From: Spirochaetaceae bacterium
Lineage (GTDB): Bacteria > Spirochaetota > Spirochaetia > DSM-27196 > PWMO01
Assembly: GCA_007693485.1 (NCBI GenBank)
Contig: REDM01000166.1
Location: 1-32,113, forward strand
Reading direction: 5' to 3'
DNA length: 32,113 nucleotides
Shown: positions 16,095 to 31,977 of the stretch, piece by piece
How positions within the stretch are numbered: the first letter of the stretch is position 1
Layout: the number at the start of each line of letters is the position of its first letter
Notes under the pieces: generated by a model
Database searches by the model: none
Told to the model about the DNA's origin: nothing
The model's input: only the letters and a program-made list of their open reading frames with translations
Position numbers and translations under genes: made by a program

Positions 16095-17393
<1,299 letters not shown>

Positions 17394-17422: not shown

Positions 17423-17452
17423 ACTATGCGCGGCATTCCCCCTGCCTGTCAA
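17423..17452 (-). promoter_or_regulatory. Enolase promoter
   Basis: On the minus strand: TTGACA (17452-17447), 18-nt spacer, CATAGT (17428-17423). The leader is about 25 nt and includes AGGAG. Confidence 0.55.
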
Positions 17453-17460
17453 GGCGAGGG

Positions 17461-17481
17461 GGGTGGTGCGAAAATTGTGCT
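17461..17481 (+). repeat. Copy 1 of a 21-bp intergenic element (eno/proS)
   Basis: GGGTGGTGC, then G, then AAAATTGTGCT. It is identical at 20 of 21 positions, and in the same orientation, to 26359-26379 in the ilvE/manC intergenic region. Here it lies between the eno and proS promoters, 22 nt upstream of the proS -35 and 8 nt upstream of the eno -35. Confidence 0.7.
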
Positions 17482-17503: not shown

Positions 17504-17532
17504 TTGACCGCAGCCCGGGCGGGGCCTACAAT
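17504..17532 (+). promoter_or_regulatory. proS promoter, leaderless arrangement
   Basis: TTGACC (17504-17509), 17-nt spacer, TACAAT (17527-17532). Only 7 nt separate the -10 from the ATG at 17540, so transcription should start at or next to the start codon. Confidence 0.7.
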
Positions 17533-17539
17533 ACGCCCG

Positions 17540-19258
17540 ATGCGTTACAGCCGGCTCTTTGCGAAAACACTGCGCAACGTTCCCCAGGGAGTGCACGCCG
17601 AGAGCTACCGGCTGCTCTTTCGCGGCGGGTTTTTGCGACCGCTGGGGCAGGGGCTGTTCTCCTGGTTGCCGCTGGGTATGCGCATTATCGCCGGTATTGA
17701 GCAGATCGTGCGCGAAGAGCTGGACAAACTCGGCGGGCAGGAGGTGTTGTTGCCGCTGGTCAACCCGCACGAGATCTGGCGGCGCAGCGGCCGCGACCGG
17801 CTCATCCACCGCGACATGGTGCAGTTTACCGACCGCGGTGGAAAGCGCCTGGTGCTCGCTCCCACCCACGAAGAAGCGGTGGTAGAGCTCTTTCGTGCCA
17901 CCGCTGGGTCGTATCGCGATCTGCCGGCCTTTCTGTATCAGTTTCAGACCAAATTTCGTGACGAGGAGCGCACGCGCTGTGGGCCGGTGCGGACCAAAGA
18001 GTTCCTGATGAAAGACGGGTACTCGTTTCATCGCTCCTTTGTCGACCTGAACAACTTCTTCCCCAAGGTCTTTGCCGCCTATCAGCGCATCTTTCACCGC
18101 TGCGGAGTGCCGGTGATTGCCGCCGAGGCGGGAGTAGGCTACATGGGAGGTGATCGCTCCTTCGAGTTTCTCTGCGAGTCAACCTGCGGCGACGACACGG
18201 TGCTGGCCTGCGCGGGATGCGGCTACACGGCCAACATGGACGTTGCTGTTGGATCAAAAAAGAGCAGCGTTGAGCAGCCGCGCGAGTTGTACCCGATTGA
18301 TACCCCCGGCTGCACCACCATGGCGCGACTCGCCAAACAGGTGAATCAGCCCCTGCATACCCTTGCCAAGTCCATGGTCTACGCCACCTCCGACGGGCTG
18401 GTGATGGCGGTGGTGCGCGGCGACCACGAGGTCAGCATCGAGAAGCTGGCCAAGGCGGTTGGGGGAATCGTGGTCAAGAAAGCCACGCGGGAGCAGCTCG
18501 ATGCGTGCGGCTTGCCCCCCGGCTTTCTTTCGCCCATCGGCCTCGATCCACTGGAACGCCGGCGGATCGGTATTCGCGTGATTGCCGACGAATCGGTTGC
18601 AAACACCCCCAACCTGGTGGTTGGCTCCAACCGCGAAAACCAGCACTACGGCGACGCCAACTTTGGCCGCGACTTTGACGCCGACGTTGTGGCCGATGTA
18701 GCCCGTGTCACCCCGGGAAGCAGCTGCCTGCACTGCGGCGGCAAGCTTGAAGAACGCACCGTGATGGAGCTGGGGCACATCTTCCGGCTGGGCGAATACT
18801 ACACCCGTACCATGGATCTGACGGTCCCCGGGGAGCACGGCGAGCGCATCTTTCCCTTCATGGGCTCGTACGGCATTGGCATCGGCCGACTGATCGCGGC
18901 GGTGGTGGAGCACAACCACGACGACCGTGGAATCATCTGGCCACCAGAGCTCGCGCCCTATCAGTTTTTTGTACTCTCCATCGGCAAGTCGTCGCGGGTC
19001 CGTGCAATTTGCGAAGAGGTCTACCGAAAGCTGGGTGCGCTTGCCCTGTTGGACGACCGCGACGAGTCGATCAGTACAAAGTTCAAGGATGCAGACCTCC
19101 TGGGCATTCCCTTTCGCATCGTTGTGTCGACCCGTTCGATCCAGAGCGGCGAGCTGGAACTTCTGGACCGGCGCACGCGGAGCATCACCCGGCTGCCGCT
19201 GGACGAGGTGCGACAGCTCGCACAGGACCGGCGGCGCATGCGGGGTCCGGCATCATGA
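17540..19258 (+). CDS. proS: Prolyl-tRNA synthetase
   Basis: A 572-aa class II synthetase of the bacterial type, including the editing insertion. MRYSRLFAKTLRNVPQ begins the family N-terminus. Motif 1 lies around GGFLRPLGQGLFSWLPLG, motif 2 is KFRDEERTRCGPVRTKEFLM (about residue 138 on), and motif 3 is GSYGIGIGRLIAAVVEHN. The anticodon-binding domain closes the protein. The middle (about 215-400) is the YbaK-like editing domain. ATG 17540 is chosen because it matches the family N-terminus and sits just behind a good promoter; no Shine-Dalgarno is present. Its stop overlaps the next start (ATGA). Confidence 0.96.
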   Translation: MRYSRLFAKTLRNVPQGVHAESYRLLFRGGFLRPLGQGLFSWLPLGMRIIAGIEQIVREELDKLGGQEVLLPLVNPHEIWRRSGRDRLIHRDMVQFTDRGGKRLVLAPTHEEAVVELFRATAGSYRDLPAFLYQFQTKFRDEERTRCGPVRTKEFLMKDGYSFHRSFVDLNNFFPKVFAAYQRIFHRCGVPVIAAEAGVGYMGGDRSFEFLCESTCGDDTVLACAGCGYTANMDVAVGSKKSSVEQPRELYPIDTPGCTTMARLAKQVNQPLHTLAKSMVYATSDGLVMAVVRGDHEVSIEKLAKAVGGIVVKKATREQLDACGLPPGFLSPIGLDPLERRRIGIRVIADESVANTPNLVVGSNRENQHYGDANFGRDFDADVVADVARVTPGSSCLHCGGKLEERTVMELGHIFRLGEYYTRTMDLTVPGEHGERIFPFMGSYGIGIGRLIAAVVEHNHDDRGIIWPPELAPYQFFVLSIGKSSRVRAICEEVYRKLGALALLDDRDESISTKFKDADLLGIPFRIVVSTRSIQSGELELLDRRTRSITRLPLDEVRQLAQDRRRMRGPAS

Positions 19259-25161: not shown

Positions 25162-26259
25162 TCAGCCGATCGGCACCATCCAGTCGTGACGGTCTTCCAC
25201 CGCGCCGTACTGGATTCCCTTCAGGGTAAGCAACAGCTCCCGGGTAAAATCACCGAGCTCTGCGTTGTTGAAGACCGCCGTCTTGCCCTTGTGGGTGATC
25301 GATTCCAGGTAGGCCACGCCTGCGGCGGTCCCGGTGACAAAGCATTCGGCCGCGTCGGCCATCGCCTCGTCAATGGTGATGTCGCGCTCTTCGACCTTCA
25401 CGCCTTTGTCGTGGGCGAGGGTGAGCACGCTCTTGCGGTTGATGCCGGGCAGGATGGTGTCACCCAGCTTTGGGGTGACCAGGGTGCCTTCCTTGAGAAA
25501 GAAAAAGATGTTGCAGGAGGAGCCTTCCTCTACATACTTCTGTTCTTTGGCGTCCAGGAAGATCGCTTCCATGTAGCCCTGCTTCTCGACGCGCTTCTTG
25601 ACCAGAATGGGTGTGACGTAGTTGGCGTCGCACTTGATCCATCCGGTGCCGCCGGGCATGGCGCGCACCAGCTCGGTGGTGATTGCCTTGGGGCGCAGCT
25701 CGCTGTCGAAGTAGGACCCCACGGGAGTCGAGACAATGACAACCCACGGCTTCTTGCTGAGGTTGAGGCCGATGCCCGGTTCCGAATAGCTGAAGGGGCG
25801 CAGGTAGATGGAGTGGCCGGAGACAAAGCCGTCCCTGGCCCACTCGGGGTCGTAGCGCGGGAAAAACCCGATCTTGTAGTTGCGGGCGACCACCTCGCGC
25901 ACCGCCTCGGTGAAGAGTTCCTCGGGGTAGGCGGGCATCATGAGGCCTTCCATGGAAGCCTGCATGCGCTTGCCGTTCTCGTCGGGTCGGAAGATTTTCA
26001 GCGTGCCGTCGGGCTGCGGGTAGGCCTTCAGCCCCTCAAAACAGCCAAGGCCGTACTGCGTGGTGTAGTTGACCAGCGGCATCTCGGGGAAGGAGTTTCG
26101 CGAGGCAAGCAGGCGGTCGCGCTCTTCGGGGCTCAGGGCGGCCTCTTCTTCCGGGGTTTTGTGCGGTTTCTCGATGTAGTTTTCCTGCCAGTTCCCGTCC
26201 GACTGGTACTGGGCGGTATAGACCCAGGGATAGATTGAGAGCGTGAATGCGGATGCCAT
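25162..26259 (-). CDS. ilvE: Branched-chain amino acid aminotransferase
   Basis: A 365-aa fold-type IV PLP enzyme that interconverts Leu/Ile/Val and their 2-oxo acids. It has LVNYTTQYGLGCFEGLKAYP and IFRPDENGKRMQASMEGLMM near the N-terminus, SIYLRPFSYSEPGIGL, the lysine block GGTGWIKCDANY, KYVEEGSSCNIFFFLKEGTL, and LPGINRKSVLTLAHDKG. The layout matches the long IlvE/BCAT type. Around the PLP lysine, KCDANY replaces the commoner KxGGNY. Start ATG 26259 with AAGGAG eight nt upstream; the frame stays open further 5' inside manC, but that part is not coding. It ends 39 nt from the convergent FlcA-like gene. Confidence 0.92.
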   Translation of the reverse strand: MASAFTLSIYPWVYTAQYQSDGNWQENYIEKPHKTPEEEAALSPEERDRLLASRNSFPEMPLVNYTTQYGLGCFEGLKAYPQPDGTLKIFRPDENGKRMQASMEGLMMPAYPEELFTEAVREVVARNYKIGFFPRYDPEWARDGFVSGHSIYLRPFSYSEPGIGLNLSKKPWVVIVSTPVGSYFDSELRPKAITTELVRAMPGGTGWIKCDANYVTPILVKKRVEKQGYMEAIFLDAKEQKYVEEGSSCNIFFFLKEGTLVTPKLGDTILPGINRKSVLTLAHDKGVKVEERDITIDEAMADAAECFVTGTAAGVAYLESITHKGKTAVFNNAELGDFTRELLLTLKGIQYGAVEDRHDWMVPIG

Positions 26260-26293: not shown

Positions 26294-26322
26294 ATTCTAT
26301 GCCGACGCGCACCTGCGGTCAA
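26294..26322 (-). promoter_or_regulatory. ilvE promoter
   Basis: On the minus strand: TTGACC (26322-26317), 17-nt spacer, TAGAAT (26299-26294). The leader is about 28 nt with AAGGAG. Confidence 0.65.
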
Positions 26323-26358: not shown

Positions 26359-26379
26359 GGGTGGTGCCAAAATTGTGCT
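26359..26379 (+). repeat. Copy 2 of the 21-bp intergenic element (ilvE/manC)
   Basis: GGGTGGTGC, then C, then AAAATTGTGCT, differing from 17461-17481 at one base. Here its TTGTGC overlaps the likely manC -35. Confidence 0.7.
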
Positions 26380-26404
26380 TTTTGCCCGGCAGGCGTAGTA
26401 TACT
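26373..26404 (+). promoter_or_regulatory. manC promoter
   Basis: TTGTGC (26373-26378) followed by a -10 region TAGTATACT (26396-26404). TAGTAT gives a 17-nt spacer and TATACT a 20-nt spacer. GGAGG at 26436-26440 precedes the ATG. Confidence 0.55.
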
Positions 26405-26445: not shown

Positions 26446-27636
26446 ATGACCGATCACGTGGTAATCTTGGCAGGAGGAACCGGCACACGGCTTTGGCCCG
26501 CATCGGTGCGGCTGCGCCCCAAGCAGTTCATGGACCCCGGCACCGGCCGCACCCTGATCGAGAGCACCCTGGTCCGCGCGGAGGCAACCGGCGCGCGCGG
26601 CGAGGTGGTGGTGGTGACCCACGTTGACCAGGTGACCGGCATGTCCCGCTACGCCCCCCTGAGAGGGGGATTCGCGCGTTCCGCGGGGAGAACCGGCCGC
26701 CCGCCGGTGGTGCTGGCCGAACCGCAGGCCAAGAATACCGCCCCCGCGGTGGCGCTTGCCATCTCGTATCTGGCGCGCACCCCCGGCCGCGAGCACGATA
26801 CCGTTCTGGTGCTGGCCGCCGACCACGTGATCACCCCCACCGACGCCTTTGTCCGCGACGTGGAGCGCGCCGACGAGCTCGCGCGCATGGGCCATCTGGT
26901 TACCTTTGGCATCCGGCCCAACCGCCCTGAAACCGGCTACGGCTACATCCACCTGGGCGAACCCATCGGCCCCGGGCGCAACGTGGACGCGTTCAAGGAA
27001 AAACCCAACCGCGAAACGGCCGAGGCCTACCTCGCCGACGGCGGTTACCTCTGGAACTCCGGCATGTTTGTGTTTCAGATCTCCACCATGTGGGAAGAGC
27101 TGGTGAAGTTTGAACCCGGCCTCGCCTCGCTGATCGCGGGTCTGCCGTGGAGCGATCCCGTCTCTGCAGCCTCCAGTGCCACCGCCGGCGCAGCCCACCC
27201 CGAGGGGCCGGGCGTCGCGGCCGACCAGGCATCAATCCGCACCGCGGGGGACGCATCCGCCATCGCCGCGGCCTACCTTCAGTTGCCGCGCGTCTCCATT
27301 GACTACGCGGTCATGGAGCGCAGCGATCGCACCGCCGTGGTGGAGGCGGGCTTTGACTGGAACGACGTGGGAAGCTGGGACGAGATGGCCAAGCTCCAGG
27401 AGGCGGGTCTCCTGACCGACGAAATCGCCCCCGGCGAGGCGGTGGCCCGCACCGTCTCCGTGGAGTCCAGCGGCAACTACGTCTTCTCGGACCTGCCGGT
27501 GGCGCTCTGCGGGGTAGAGGATCTCTGCGTGGTGGTGAAGAACGGCCGCGTCCTGGTCTGCCGCCGCGGCCGCAGCCAGCTGGTCAAGGAGGCGGTGGAC
27601 CAGCTCGAGCGCGAAGGGCGGGCGGATCTGGTGTAG
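26446..27636 (+). CDS. manC: Mannose-1-phosphate guanylyltransferase
   Basis: A 396-aa nucleotidyltransferase that makes GDP-mannose for surface polysaccharides. The N-terminus HVVILAGGTGTRLWPASVRL, then RPKQF, is the nucleotide-binding loop. Further signatures are LAEPQAKNTAPAVALA, LAADHVI, RPETGYGYIHLGEP, FKEKPNRETAEAYL, GYLWNSGMFVF, SIDYAVMERS and DWNDVGSWDEMAKL. The length fits the monofunctional enzyme without the phosphomannose isomerase cupin. An Ala/Gly-rich, low-complexity insert (about residues 240-275) sits in the helical region before the YLQLP block. GGAGG precedes ATG 26446. It ends 11 nt from a convergent gene. Confidence 0.93.
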   Translation: MTDHVVILAGGTGTRLWPASVRLRPKQFMDPGTGRTLIESTLVRAEATGARGEVVVVTHVDQVTGMSRYAPLRGGFARSAGRTGRPPVVLAEPQAKNTAPAVALAISYLARTPGREHDTVLVLAADHVITPTDAFVRDVERADELARMGHLVTFGIRPNRPETGYGYIHLGEPIGPGRNVDAFKEKPNRETAEAYLADGGYLWNSGMFVFQISTMWEELVKFEPGLASLIAGLPWSDPVSAASSATAGAAHPEGPGVAADQASIRTAGDASAIAAAYLQLPRVSIDYAVMERSDRTAVVEAGFDWNDVGSWDEMAKLQEAGLLTDEIAPGEAVARTVSVESSGNYVFSDLPVALCGVEDLCVVVKNGRVLVCRRGRSQLVKEAVDQLEREGRADLV

Positions 27637-29031: not shown

Positions 29032-29101
29032 GTTTTTCCGCGGAAACGAAAGCAGTTGTTCATTTACCCCCGTATTACTATACTGAAAGGAGACACGAAT
29101 G
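29032..29101 (+). repeat. Copy A of a duplicated promoter segment
   Basis: About 57 bp (29032-29088) from GTTTTTC through AAACGAAAGCAG, TTGTTCATTT and CGTATTACTATACTGA is nearly identical to 31485-31541. The similarity continues more weakly into both coiled-coil genes. It contains the promoter. Confidence 0.8.
29056..29084 (+). promoter_or_regulatory. Promoter of coiled-coil gene A
   Basis: TTGTTC (29056-29061), 17-nt spacer, TATACT (29079-29084). It is conserved in copy B. The expected transcription start is near 29091, which would cut into AAGGAG (29087-29092) and leave a leader under 10 nt. Confidence 0.6.
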
Positions 29102-29665
29102 GGAGAAACGGTCATGGCATTGCAGGACGCGGATCTCGAGCGAATTGGAAAGTATGTACAGTCTCAGCTGCCCCGCTGGATGGAATCGATGGAGCGCCCC
29201 CTGCCCGAGGCGCGAATCCTCGAGCGCCTTACCCGCGTGGAAGACGCCATAGTCTCGGGCCAGGAGCTGATGCGCACCGAGTTCCGCGCCCAGCGCGAGC
29301 TGATGGAACAGCGCTTTGCCGCGGTAGACCGGCGCTTCGACGCGATGCAGAAGCAGATGGACGAGCGCTTCGAATCCGTGCAGAAGCAGATGGATGAGCG
29401 CTTCGACGCAATGCAGCTGCAGATGGACCAGCGCTTTGCGGCATCCGACGCCCGGTTCGAGGCGATCCTGCGCGAGATGGACAAACGGTTTGATGCAGTC
29501 GACAAACGCTTCGAAGAGCAGCGCGAGCAGACGGACAAGCGGTTTGAGTCCGTTGATAAGCGCTTCGACGACATGCAGGCAAATTTCGCGCGGACGCAGT
29601 GGCTGATTGGCGTGGGCTTTGTGGTGCTGGGCACGATGGTGTCGATCTTCCACGTTCTGGGCTGA
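29099..29665 (+). CDS. Membrane-anchored coiled-coil protein, paralogue A
   Basis: A 188-aa protein. The N-terminal ~70 residues (ALQDADLERIGKYVQSQLPR and ILERLTRVEDAIVSGQELMR) lead into a long coiled coil, and it ends in a membrane span (QWLIGVGFVVLGTMVSIFHV). The coiled coil (R72-A161) is built of units starting RF with lengths 7, 11, 11, 11, 7, 11, 7, 11, 7, 7, for example RFDAMQKQMDE, RFESVQKQMDE, RFDAVDK. This resembles DUF1640-type coiled-coil proteins. A tail anchor would leave the coil in the cytoplasm. It is about half-identical or better to the protein at 31552. Function unknown; proximity to Uma2 is notable. Confidence 0.8.
   Translation: MGETVMALQDADLERIGKYVQSQLPRWMESMERPLPEARILERLTRVEDAIVSGQELMRTEFRAQRELMEQRFAAVDRRFDAMQKQMDERFESVQKQMDERFDAMQLQMDQRFAASDARFEAILREMDKRFDAVDKRFEEQREQTDKRFESVDKRFDDMQANFARTQWLIGVGFVVLGTMVSIFHVLG
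29312..29581 (+). repeat. In-frame 33-bp and 21-bp repeats encoding the coiled coil
   Basis: Ten consecutive units, each beginning with an Arg-Phe codon pair, of 33 bp (11 codons) or 21 bp (7 codons). Neighbouring 33-bp units around 29333-29431 are very similar in DNA. There are no spacers, so this is not a CRISPR. Confidence 0.7.
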
Positions 29666-31484: not shown

Positions 31485-31554
31485 GTTTTTCTCCCAAAAC
31501 GAAAGCAGTTGTTCATTTTCCCGCGTATTACTATACTGAGAGGTGAACAGTATG
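31485..31554 (+). repeat. Copy B of the duplicated promoter segment
   Basis: 31485-31541 corresponds to 29032-29088 with only a few substitutions, densest in the spacer between GTTTTTC and AAACGAAAG. The left boundary coincides with the broken end of the DUF1902 frame. Confidence 0.8.
31509..31537 (+). promoter_or_regulatory. Promoter of coiled-coil gene B
   Basis: TTGTTC (31509-31514), 17-nt spacer, TATACT (31532-31537), with both boxes identical to copy A. Confidence 0.6.
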
Positions 31555-31977
31555 GGAGAACGGCTCATGGCCCTGCAGGATGCGGATCTGGAGCGGATTG
31601 GACGGTACGTACAGTCTCAGTTGCCGGGGTGGCTTGAAGCTTCGGATCGGCCGTTGCCTGGGGTGCAGGTGGTGGAGAAGTTGACGCGGCTGGAAGACGC
31701 GATTCTGTCCGGGCAGGAGCTGATGCGCAGCGAGTTGCATGCTCAGCGAGAGCTGATGGAGCAGCGGTTTACGTCGATGCAGAAGCAGATGGATGAGCGG
31801 TTCACGGCGGTGCTGCGCGAGATTGAGGTGCGCGCTGCGGCCTCGGACAAACGGTTCGAGTCTGTTGATAAGCGTTTCGACGACATGCAGGCCAACTTCG
31901 CGCGCACGCAGTGGTTGATTGGGATTGGCTTCGTTGTGCTGGGAAGTCTGGTGTCGATGTTTCACCTTCTGGGGTAG
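31552..31977 (+). CDS. Membrane-anchored coiled-coil protein, paralogue B
   Basis: A 141-aa shorter copy of the protein at 29099. The N-terminus (ALQDADLERIGRYVQSQLPG; LTRLEDAILSGQELMR) and C-terminus (KRFDDMQANFARTQWLIGIG plus membrane span) are closely similar. The coiled coil (DNA 31765-31893) has only five RF-type units, of lengths 11, 11, 7, 7, 7. The 47-residue length difference is wholly due to the missing repeat units. ATG 31552 matches the paralogue's start; GTG 31543 is possible. Codon third positions are less GC-rich than in copy A, hinting at separate histories. It is followed by no clear terminator. Confidence 0.78.
   Translation: MGERLMALQDADLERIGRYVQSQLPGWLEASDRPLPGVQVVEKLTRLEDAILSGQELMRSELHAQRELMEQRFTSMQKQMDERFTAVLREIEVRAAASDKRFESVDKRFDDMQANFARTQWLIGIGFVVLGSLVSMFHLLG

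Follow-up and report, generated by a model that had tools for sequence, protein, structure and literature searches.

The 21-bp element shared by two divergent intergenic gaps of the window (the whole 32,113-nucleotide stretch of DNA analyzed here) is almost certainly one solo copy of a terminal inverted repeat (TIR), ~19 to 24 nt long, that belongs to an IS/MITE family residing in this spirochete lineage. The reading that we favor, at a probability of roughly 0.5, is that such copies are TIR-derived, putative protein-binding sites that have been retained at promoters or transcription-unit borders.

The two gaps and the distribution of the element

The element, GGGTGGTGC-N-AAAATTGTGCT, lies on the plus strand at 17461-17481 (N = G) and 26359-26379 (N = C) and has a core, GTGGTGC-N-AAAAT-TGTGCT, plus a T-rich tail. 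Its half-sites are GTGGTGC and TGTGCT, with GTGC recurring 11 bp apart. An earlier note on this DNA had described a pair of 21-mers in the same orientation, identical at 20 of 21 positions and placed in divergent gaps; we located the pair as described, and the divergent neighbors are eno(-)/proS(+) and ilvE(-)/manC(+). The window held no other match to the 21-mer at up to 3 mismatches. The features of the two gaps are as follows.

16095..17390, minus strand: eno
17423..17452, minus strand: predicted eno promoter TTGACA-18-CATAGT (from sequence and promoter scan; TGTCAAGGC conserved in congeners)
17461..17481, plus strand: TIR-like element, solo copy 1 (core GTGGTGCGAAAATTGTGCT at 17463-17481)
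17504..17532, plus strand: predicted proS promoter TTGACC-17-TACAAT (from sequence and promoter scan; conserved in congeners)
17540..19258, plus strand: proS
25162..26259, minus strand: ilvE (name from the earlier note; start by coding scan)
26294..26322, minus strand: predicted ilvE promoter TTGACC-17-TAGAAT (from sequence and promoter scan; GGTCAAG conserved in congeners)
26359..26379, plus strand: TIR-like element, solo copy 2 (core GTGGTGCCAAAATTGTGCT at 26361-26379; also in the sister species G005)
26373..26401, plus strand: predicted manC promoter TTGTGC-17-TAGTAT (from sequence; -35 within the element)
26446..27636, plus strand: manC, mannose-1-phosphate guanylyltransferase type (name from the earlier note)

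The eno -35 box (TTGACA on the minus strand, 17447-17452), which had been overlooked in the earlier note, is 8 bp from the outer end of the element, and the predicted proS promoter starts 22 bp past its inner end. The proposal that position 26373 supplies the manC -35 is plausible, with TTGTGC, 17 nt, and then TAGTAT as a candidate -35/-10 pair; it was likewise correct that no properly spaced -10 follows 17475, and proS has its own TTGACC-17-TACAAT. The manC promoter region bearing the element is missing from the congeners G001 and G004. Elsewhere in the window, a coiled-coil protein gene is present as a diverged duplication (76-85%; 29032-29661 and 31485-31973) that includes internal repeats and the upstream region.

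The genome from which the window comes (G000) is a metagenome-like assembly of 3.76 Mb in 304 contigs, and the sequences nearest to its enolase are from Spirochaetales MAGs. Scanning it at up to 3 mismatches returned 59 matches, compared to 0 for the reversed control pattern, and 100 dinucleotide shuffles of the window gave 0 matches, which upholds the claim that the pair is not due to chance. Among 30 relatives, many copies were found only within the same genus, with 48 in the close sister G005; other congeners carry the variants CTGGTGCCAAAAATGTGCT and GTGGTGCCAAAATTGTTTT, and other families of the order had 0 to 2 copies each. In G001 (contig C24, L211:1032-1252), three 101-bp tandem repeats each contain GTTTCACGTGGAACATTTGAA with the variant end GTGGTGCCAAAATTGTTTT after it.

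At the ilvE/manC gap, the element is present in G005 and absent in G001, G003, and G004; at the eno/proS gap it is absent from the same three genomes, and G005 has no assembled eno. When aligned to G001 and G004, the element stretch appears as extra sequence that separates the conserved -35 of eno from the promoter of proS in one gap and the -35 of ilvE from the start of manC in the other; the eno/proS gap of G003 has a different extra sequence in its place. The test by genome frequency and by conservation at the two gaps, as proposed in the earlier note, gave a divided answer: the frequency is far above chance and the ilvE/manC copy is kept in the close sister, but both gaps lack the element in the further congeners. 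Most of the copies with flanks assembled in G005 are common to both species. One copy (L021) is absent from G005 along with its inner flank, and the 45- to 49-bp tract found only in G000 holds the element.

Relation to transposon ends

Some copies lie at contig ends, where the inner flanks are identical and the outer flanks different. On contig C267, a nearly complete element of ~458 bp (L054) carries the exact motif at its ends; it is an internally deleted derivative whose residual frame matches the C terminus of an IS transposase, with related transposase fragments at both ends. Contig C47 contains a 58-bp mini-element with two inverted motif copies, and both it and the 458-bp element have the two terminal inverted repeats and short body of a MITE. 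In G003 and G006 there are complete IS, ~1.53, 1.36, and 1.35 kb long, whose motif-like TIRs enclose transposases of 405 to 434 aa. Intact IS carrying a similar TIR were seen in congeners only; in G000 we found neither an intact transposase with exactly this TIR nor a stand-alone DNA-binding relative. The earlier suggestion of a dispersed chromosomal element is borne out: the element is the TIR of an IS/MITE family that resides in this genome, and most of its copies are solo. A full-length transposase relative on contig C4 (C436 in G005) was considered as a domesticated transposase and rejected, because it has its own, different TIRs and unshared flanks and is just one more IS; a search for other relatives found none.

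The congener IS encode these zinc-ribbon/RNase-H-fold transposases:

L273:534-1838, transposase gene
L280:269-1486, transposase gene
L274:362-1594, transposase gene

In an alignment they form a single family, sharing a zinc ribbon with four cysteines, an HTH region, and aspartates that do not vary. The RNase-H-like core of a DDE transposase is present, with D137 and D228 invariant, and the nearest structures to an AlphaFold model (pLDDT 77) are, weakly, retroviral integrases and Metnase (E 5e-3 at best). There was no Pfam match, and NCBIfam returned weak ISL3/IS1 similarity at 20 to 25 bits against cutoffs of 180 and 100 (24.9 against 180 for the ISL3 family model). The ISL3 and IS1 families share the zinc-ribbon and HTH N terminus and the RNase-H-like core, but these transposases score far under the curated cutoffs and match no Pfam model; they probably constitute an unclassified IS family.

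Two further motifs behave in the same way. The second, with 37 copies in G000 and 17 in G005, terminates both another IS (contig C273) and a MITE of 358 bp; the third, with 23 copies, serves as the TIR for the multicopy IS on C4/C44/C66/C205 and for a MITE of 443 bp:

G000 contigs C205, C38, C40, C123, C157, C174, C179, and others (L320-L347): second motif, GTGTTCCAAAAGCTGTGCATTTTT
G000 contigs C4, C40, C44, C66, C205, and others (L387-L409): third motif, CTGCCCCGAAGCTTGGTGAAAA

Solo copies exist for all three motifs, which follow the same IS/MITE/solo pattern in G000, and congeners have their own TIR type as IS, ~100-bp MITEs, and solos. On C205, a copy of the first motif is ~30 bp away from the second.

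Placement and constraint of the solo copies

About 50 of the G000 copies are not recognizable as IS or MITE ends, though one or two may still be ends. With genes called by a simple coding-score caller, 38 of these 50 solos are intergenic, compared to an intergenic share of 7.8% for the window. No inverted partner was found near the solo copies (best inverted scores, 9.84 on the right and 9.79 on the left), and we rejected the idea that they are MITEs with a decayed second end because inverted partners are not in excess. For intergenic copies, the gene on the outer side (5' of the motif) faces the copy with its start in 28 cases and with its end in 9 (p = 0.0026), compared to 18 and 17 on the inner side, and where an outer-side gene ends at the copy, its stop codon is frequently 2 to 7 bp away. 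Strong promoter-like sites reading away from the outer end occur at 21 of 62 G000 and G005 sites and on the inner side at 6 of 62, orthologous pairs entering this count once per species. In 18 of the 21, the -35 is no more than 17 bp away, the copy typically lying 3 to 17 bp upstream of it. This proximity may merely mirror where insertions are tolerated.

A conserved bipartite site in fixed orientation upstream of -35 boxes is also what a transcription factor regulon would present. However, Pfam analysis of 30 adjacent genes returned a mixed, largely housekeeping set (aminoacyl-tRNA synthetase, NrdD, glutaredoxin, formate-THF ligase, FabH/FabD, H+-pyrophosphatase, and regulators), and a coherent regulon was rejected for want of functional relatedness among these neighbors. 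Unlike a regulon, the solo set is also far more exact than usual operators and identical to transposon ends. One gene for an anaerobic ribonucleotide reductase carries the motif (L024, at 1501) and has in its promoter, immediately left of the motif, an NrdR-box-like sequence, ACACTATATATTGTGT.

Core mismatches fall in the center (20/250) rather than in the half-sites (2/650; p = 9e-10), although the variation in the center may be partly inherited from TIR subtypes. In G005, copies with orthologous flanks (n = 30) differ in the core by 4.4%, compared to 13-19% in the flanks, without indels; sites were picked by likeness to the G000 consensus, so that under neutrality one should fairly expect about half of the flank divergence. 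The contrast is real yet smaller than it appears, because this ascertainment accounts for part of it. Twelve copies lie within predicted genes, and a protein-level cause was rejected because the motif is read there in several frames and from either strand. Congener homologs were found for five of the seven such genes tested, and all five align gap-free; in an SDR protein, for example, AERGAKIVLNGRD or AERGANIVLNGRD stands against AERGATVVLNGRD in congeners. These sites were therefore built by substitution and not by insertion, which points to apparent selection for the DNA site itself.

Proposed origin and competing explanations

Bacterial transposon ends are usually paired and quick to decay. 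The solo ends likely retain a putative binding function. Elements would have inserted at transcription-unit borders, behind stop codons and just upstream of -35 boxes, and would then have lost their body, leaving one end. That end would be retained since a protein recognizing both half-sites (GTGGTGC and TGTGCT) binds there; the binder could be the transposase, its derivative, or a host protein of equal specificity. Bound beside a -35, it might activate or repress the promoter or insulate it from neighboring transcription, and at manC the end itself would contribute the -35. New sites would also arise through point mutation within genes, and binding itself seems selected because the intragenic copies show no insertion. 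Several findings count against this account: 0 solo copies have a second end, so that body loss after insertion is something we infer; the gap-free intragenic copies (5/5) are incompatible with insertion; G000 yielded neither an intact transposase with exactly this TIR nor a stand-alone DNA-binding relative; and the neighboring genes have no function in common.

A doubtful but possible alternative is that a host factor, either a global regulator or a nucleoid protein, binds the element and that the IS has ends of similar sequence since it exploits this factor. The invariant half-sites, the -40 to -65 placement at many promoters, the orientation bias, and the substitution-made copies in genes, common to G005, would all fit, but there are three TIR sequences, each with its own solo set, and congeners' solos are of their own TIR type, so that a host factor would need to be matched each time; the genes are also functionally mixed, and congeners lack copies in both window gaps. 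The global regulator site of the earlier note has accordingly fared unevenly, gaining from the invariant half-sites, the position upstream of -35 boxes, and the gap-free intragenic copies and losing from neighbors without a common function and the failure to find a binding protein. It is unlikely that the copies are nonfunctional relics, that is, decayed IS or MITE copies with a single end still recognizable. TIR identity, the insertion-like length differences at both window gaps, and the G000-only tract at L021 are what relics would leave, but the half-sites are nearly unmutated despite the 13-19% flank divergence from G005, decayed second ends are absent, and the gap-free intragenic copies do not fit.

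A selected chromosome-wide signal for DNA uptake, segregation, or recombination is highly improbable: the element is highly exact, nonpalindromic, dispersed, and built within genes too, but it has only ~60 copies with a strong intergenic and promoter bias, and it is one of three parallel motifs linked to IS. DNA uptake sequences (Haemophilus USS and Neisseria DUS) are likewise exact, dispersed motifs found between and within genes, but they number about a thousand copies or more, whereas this genome has tens, with a promoter bias and a link to IS ends. GGTGCG resembles a XerC arm, and a Xer/dif site was rejected because the second arm is not conserved. A sigma-54 promoter, which needs GG at -24 and, at a spacing of ten bases, GC at -12, was rejected as well, since TGGTGCGAAAATTGTGCT has GT at the -12 GC position. 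Resemblance by chance, or a -35 box simply held in common, can be practically dismissed; TTGTGC is able to act as the manC -35, but 59 copies were found where 0 were expected, and most have no correctly spaced -10 on that side.

For the favored reading of retained TIR-derived sites, the nearest published kind is the regulatory MITE (PMC10969869). Prokaryotic MITEs such as the Correia elements of Neisseria are short, IS-derived, and regulatory in effect (PMC10969869). As here, regulatory MITEs are short, intergenic sequences near promoters that can give promoter parts or protein-binding sites (PMC10969869), but they carry two inverted ends, whereas the copies described here are single ends of ~21 to 24 nt, some made by substitution within genes. 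We found no direct precedent for solo TIRs or for bacterial domesticated-transposase regulons in the literature searched.

As a tentative extension that we consider possible though improbable, the IS family may have seeded several parallel genome-wide networks of single ends, kept by selection, in which promoter-border elements would be bound by transposases or a domesticated derivative and point mutation would add intragenic sites. The interest lies in the dozens of exact single ends, which the sister species share, which sit at promoter borders, and which recur for three IS types. If true, this would offer a clear example, in bacteria, of transposon ends turned into a regulatory or insulating network.
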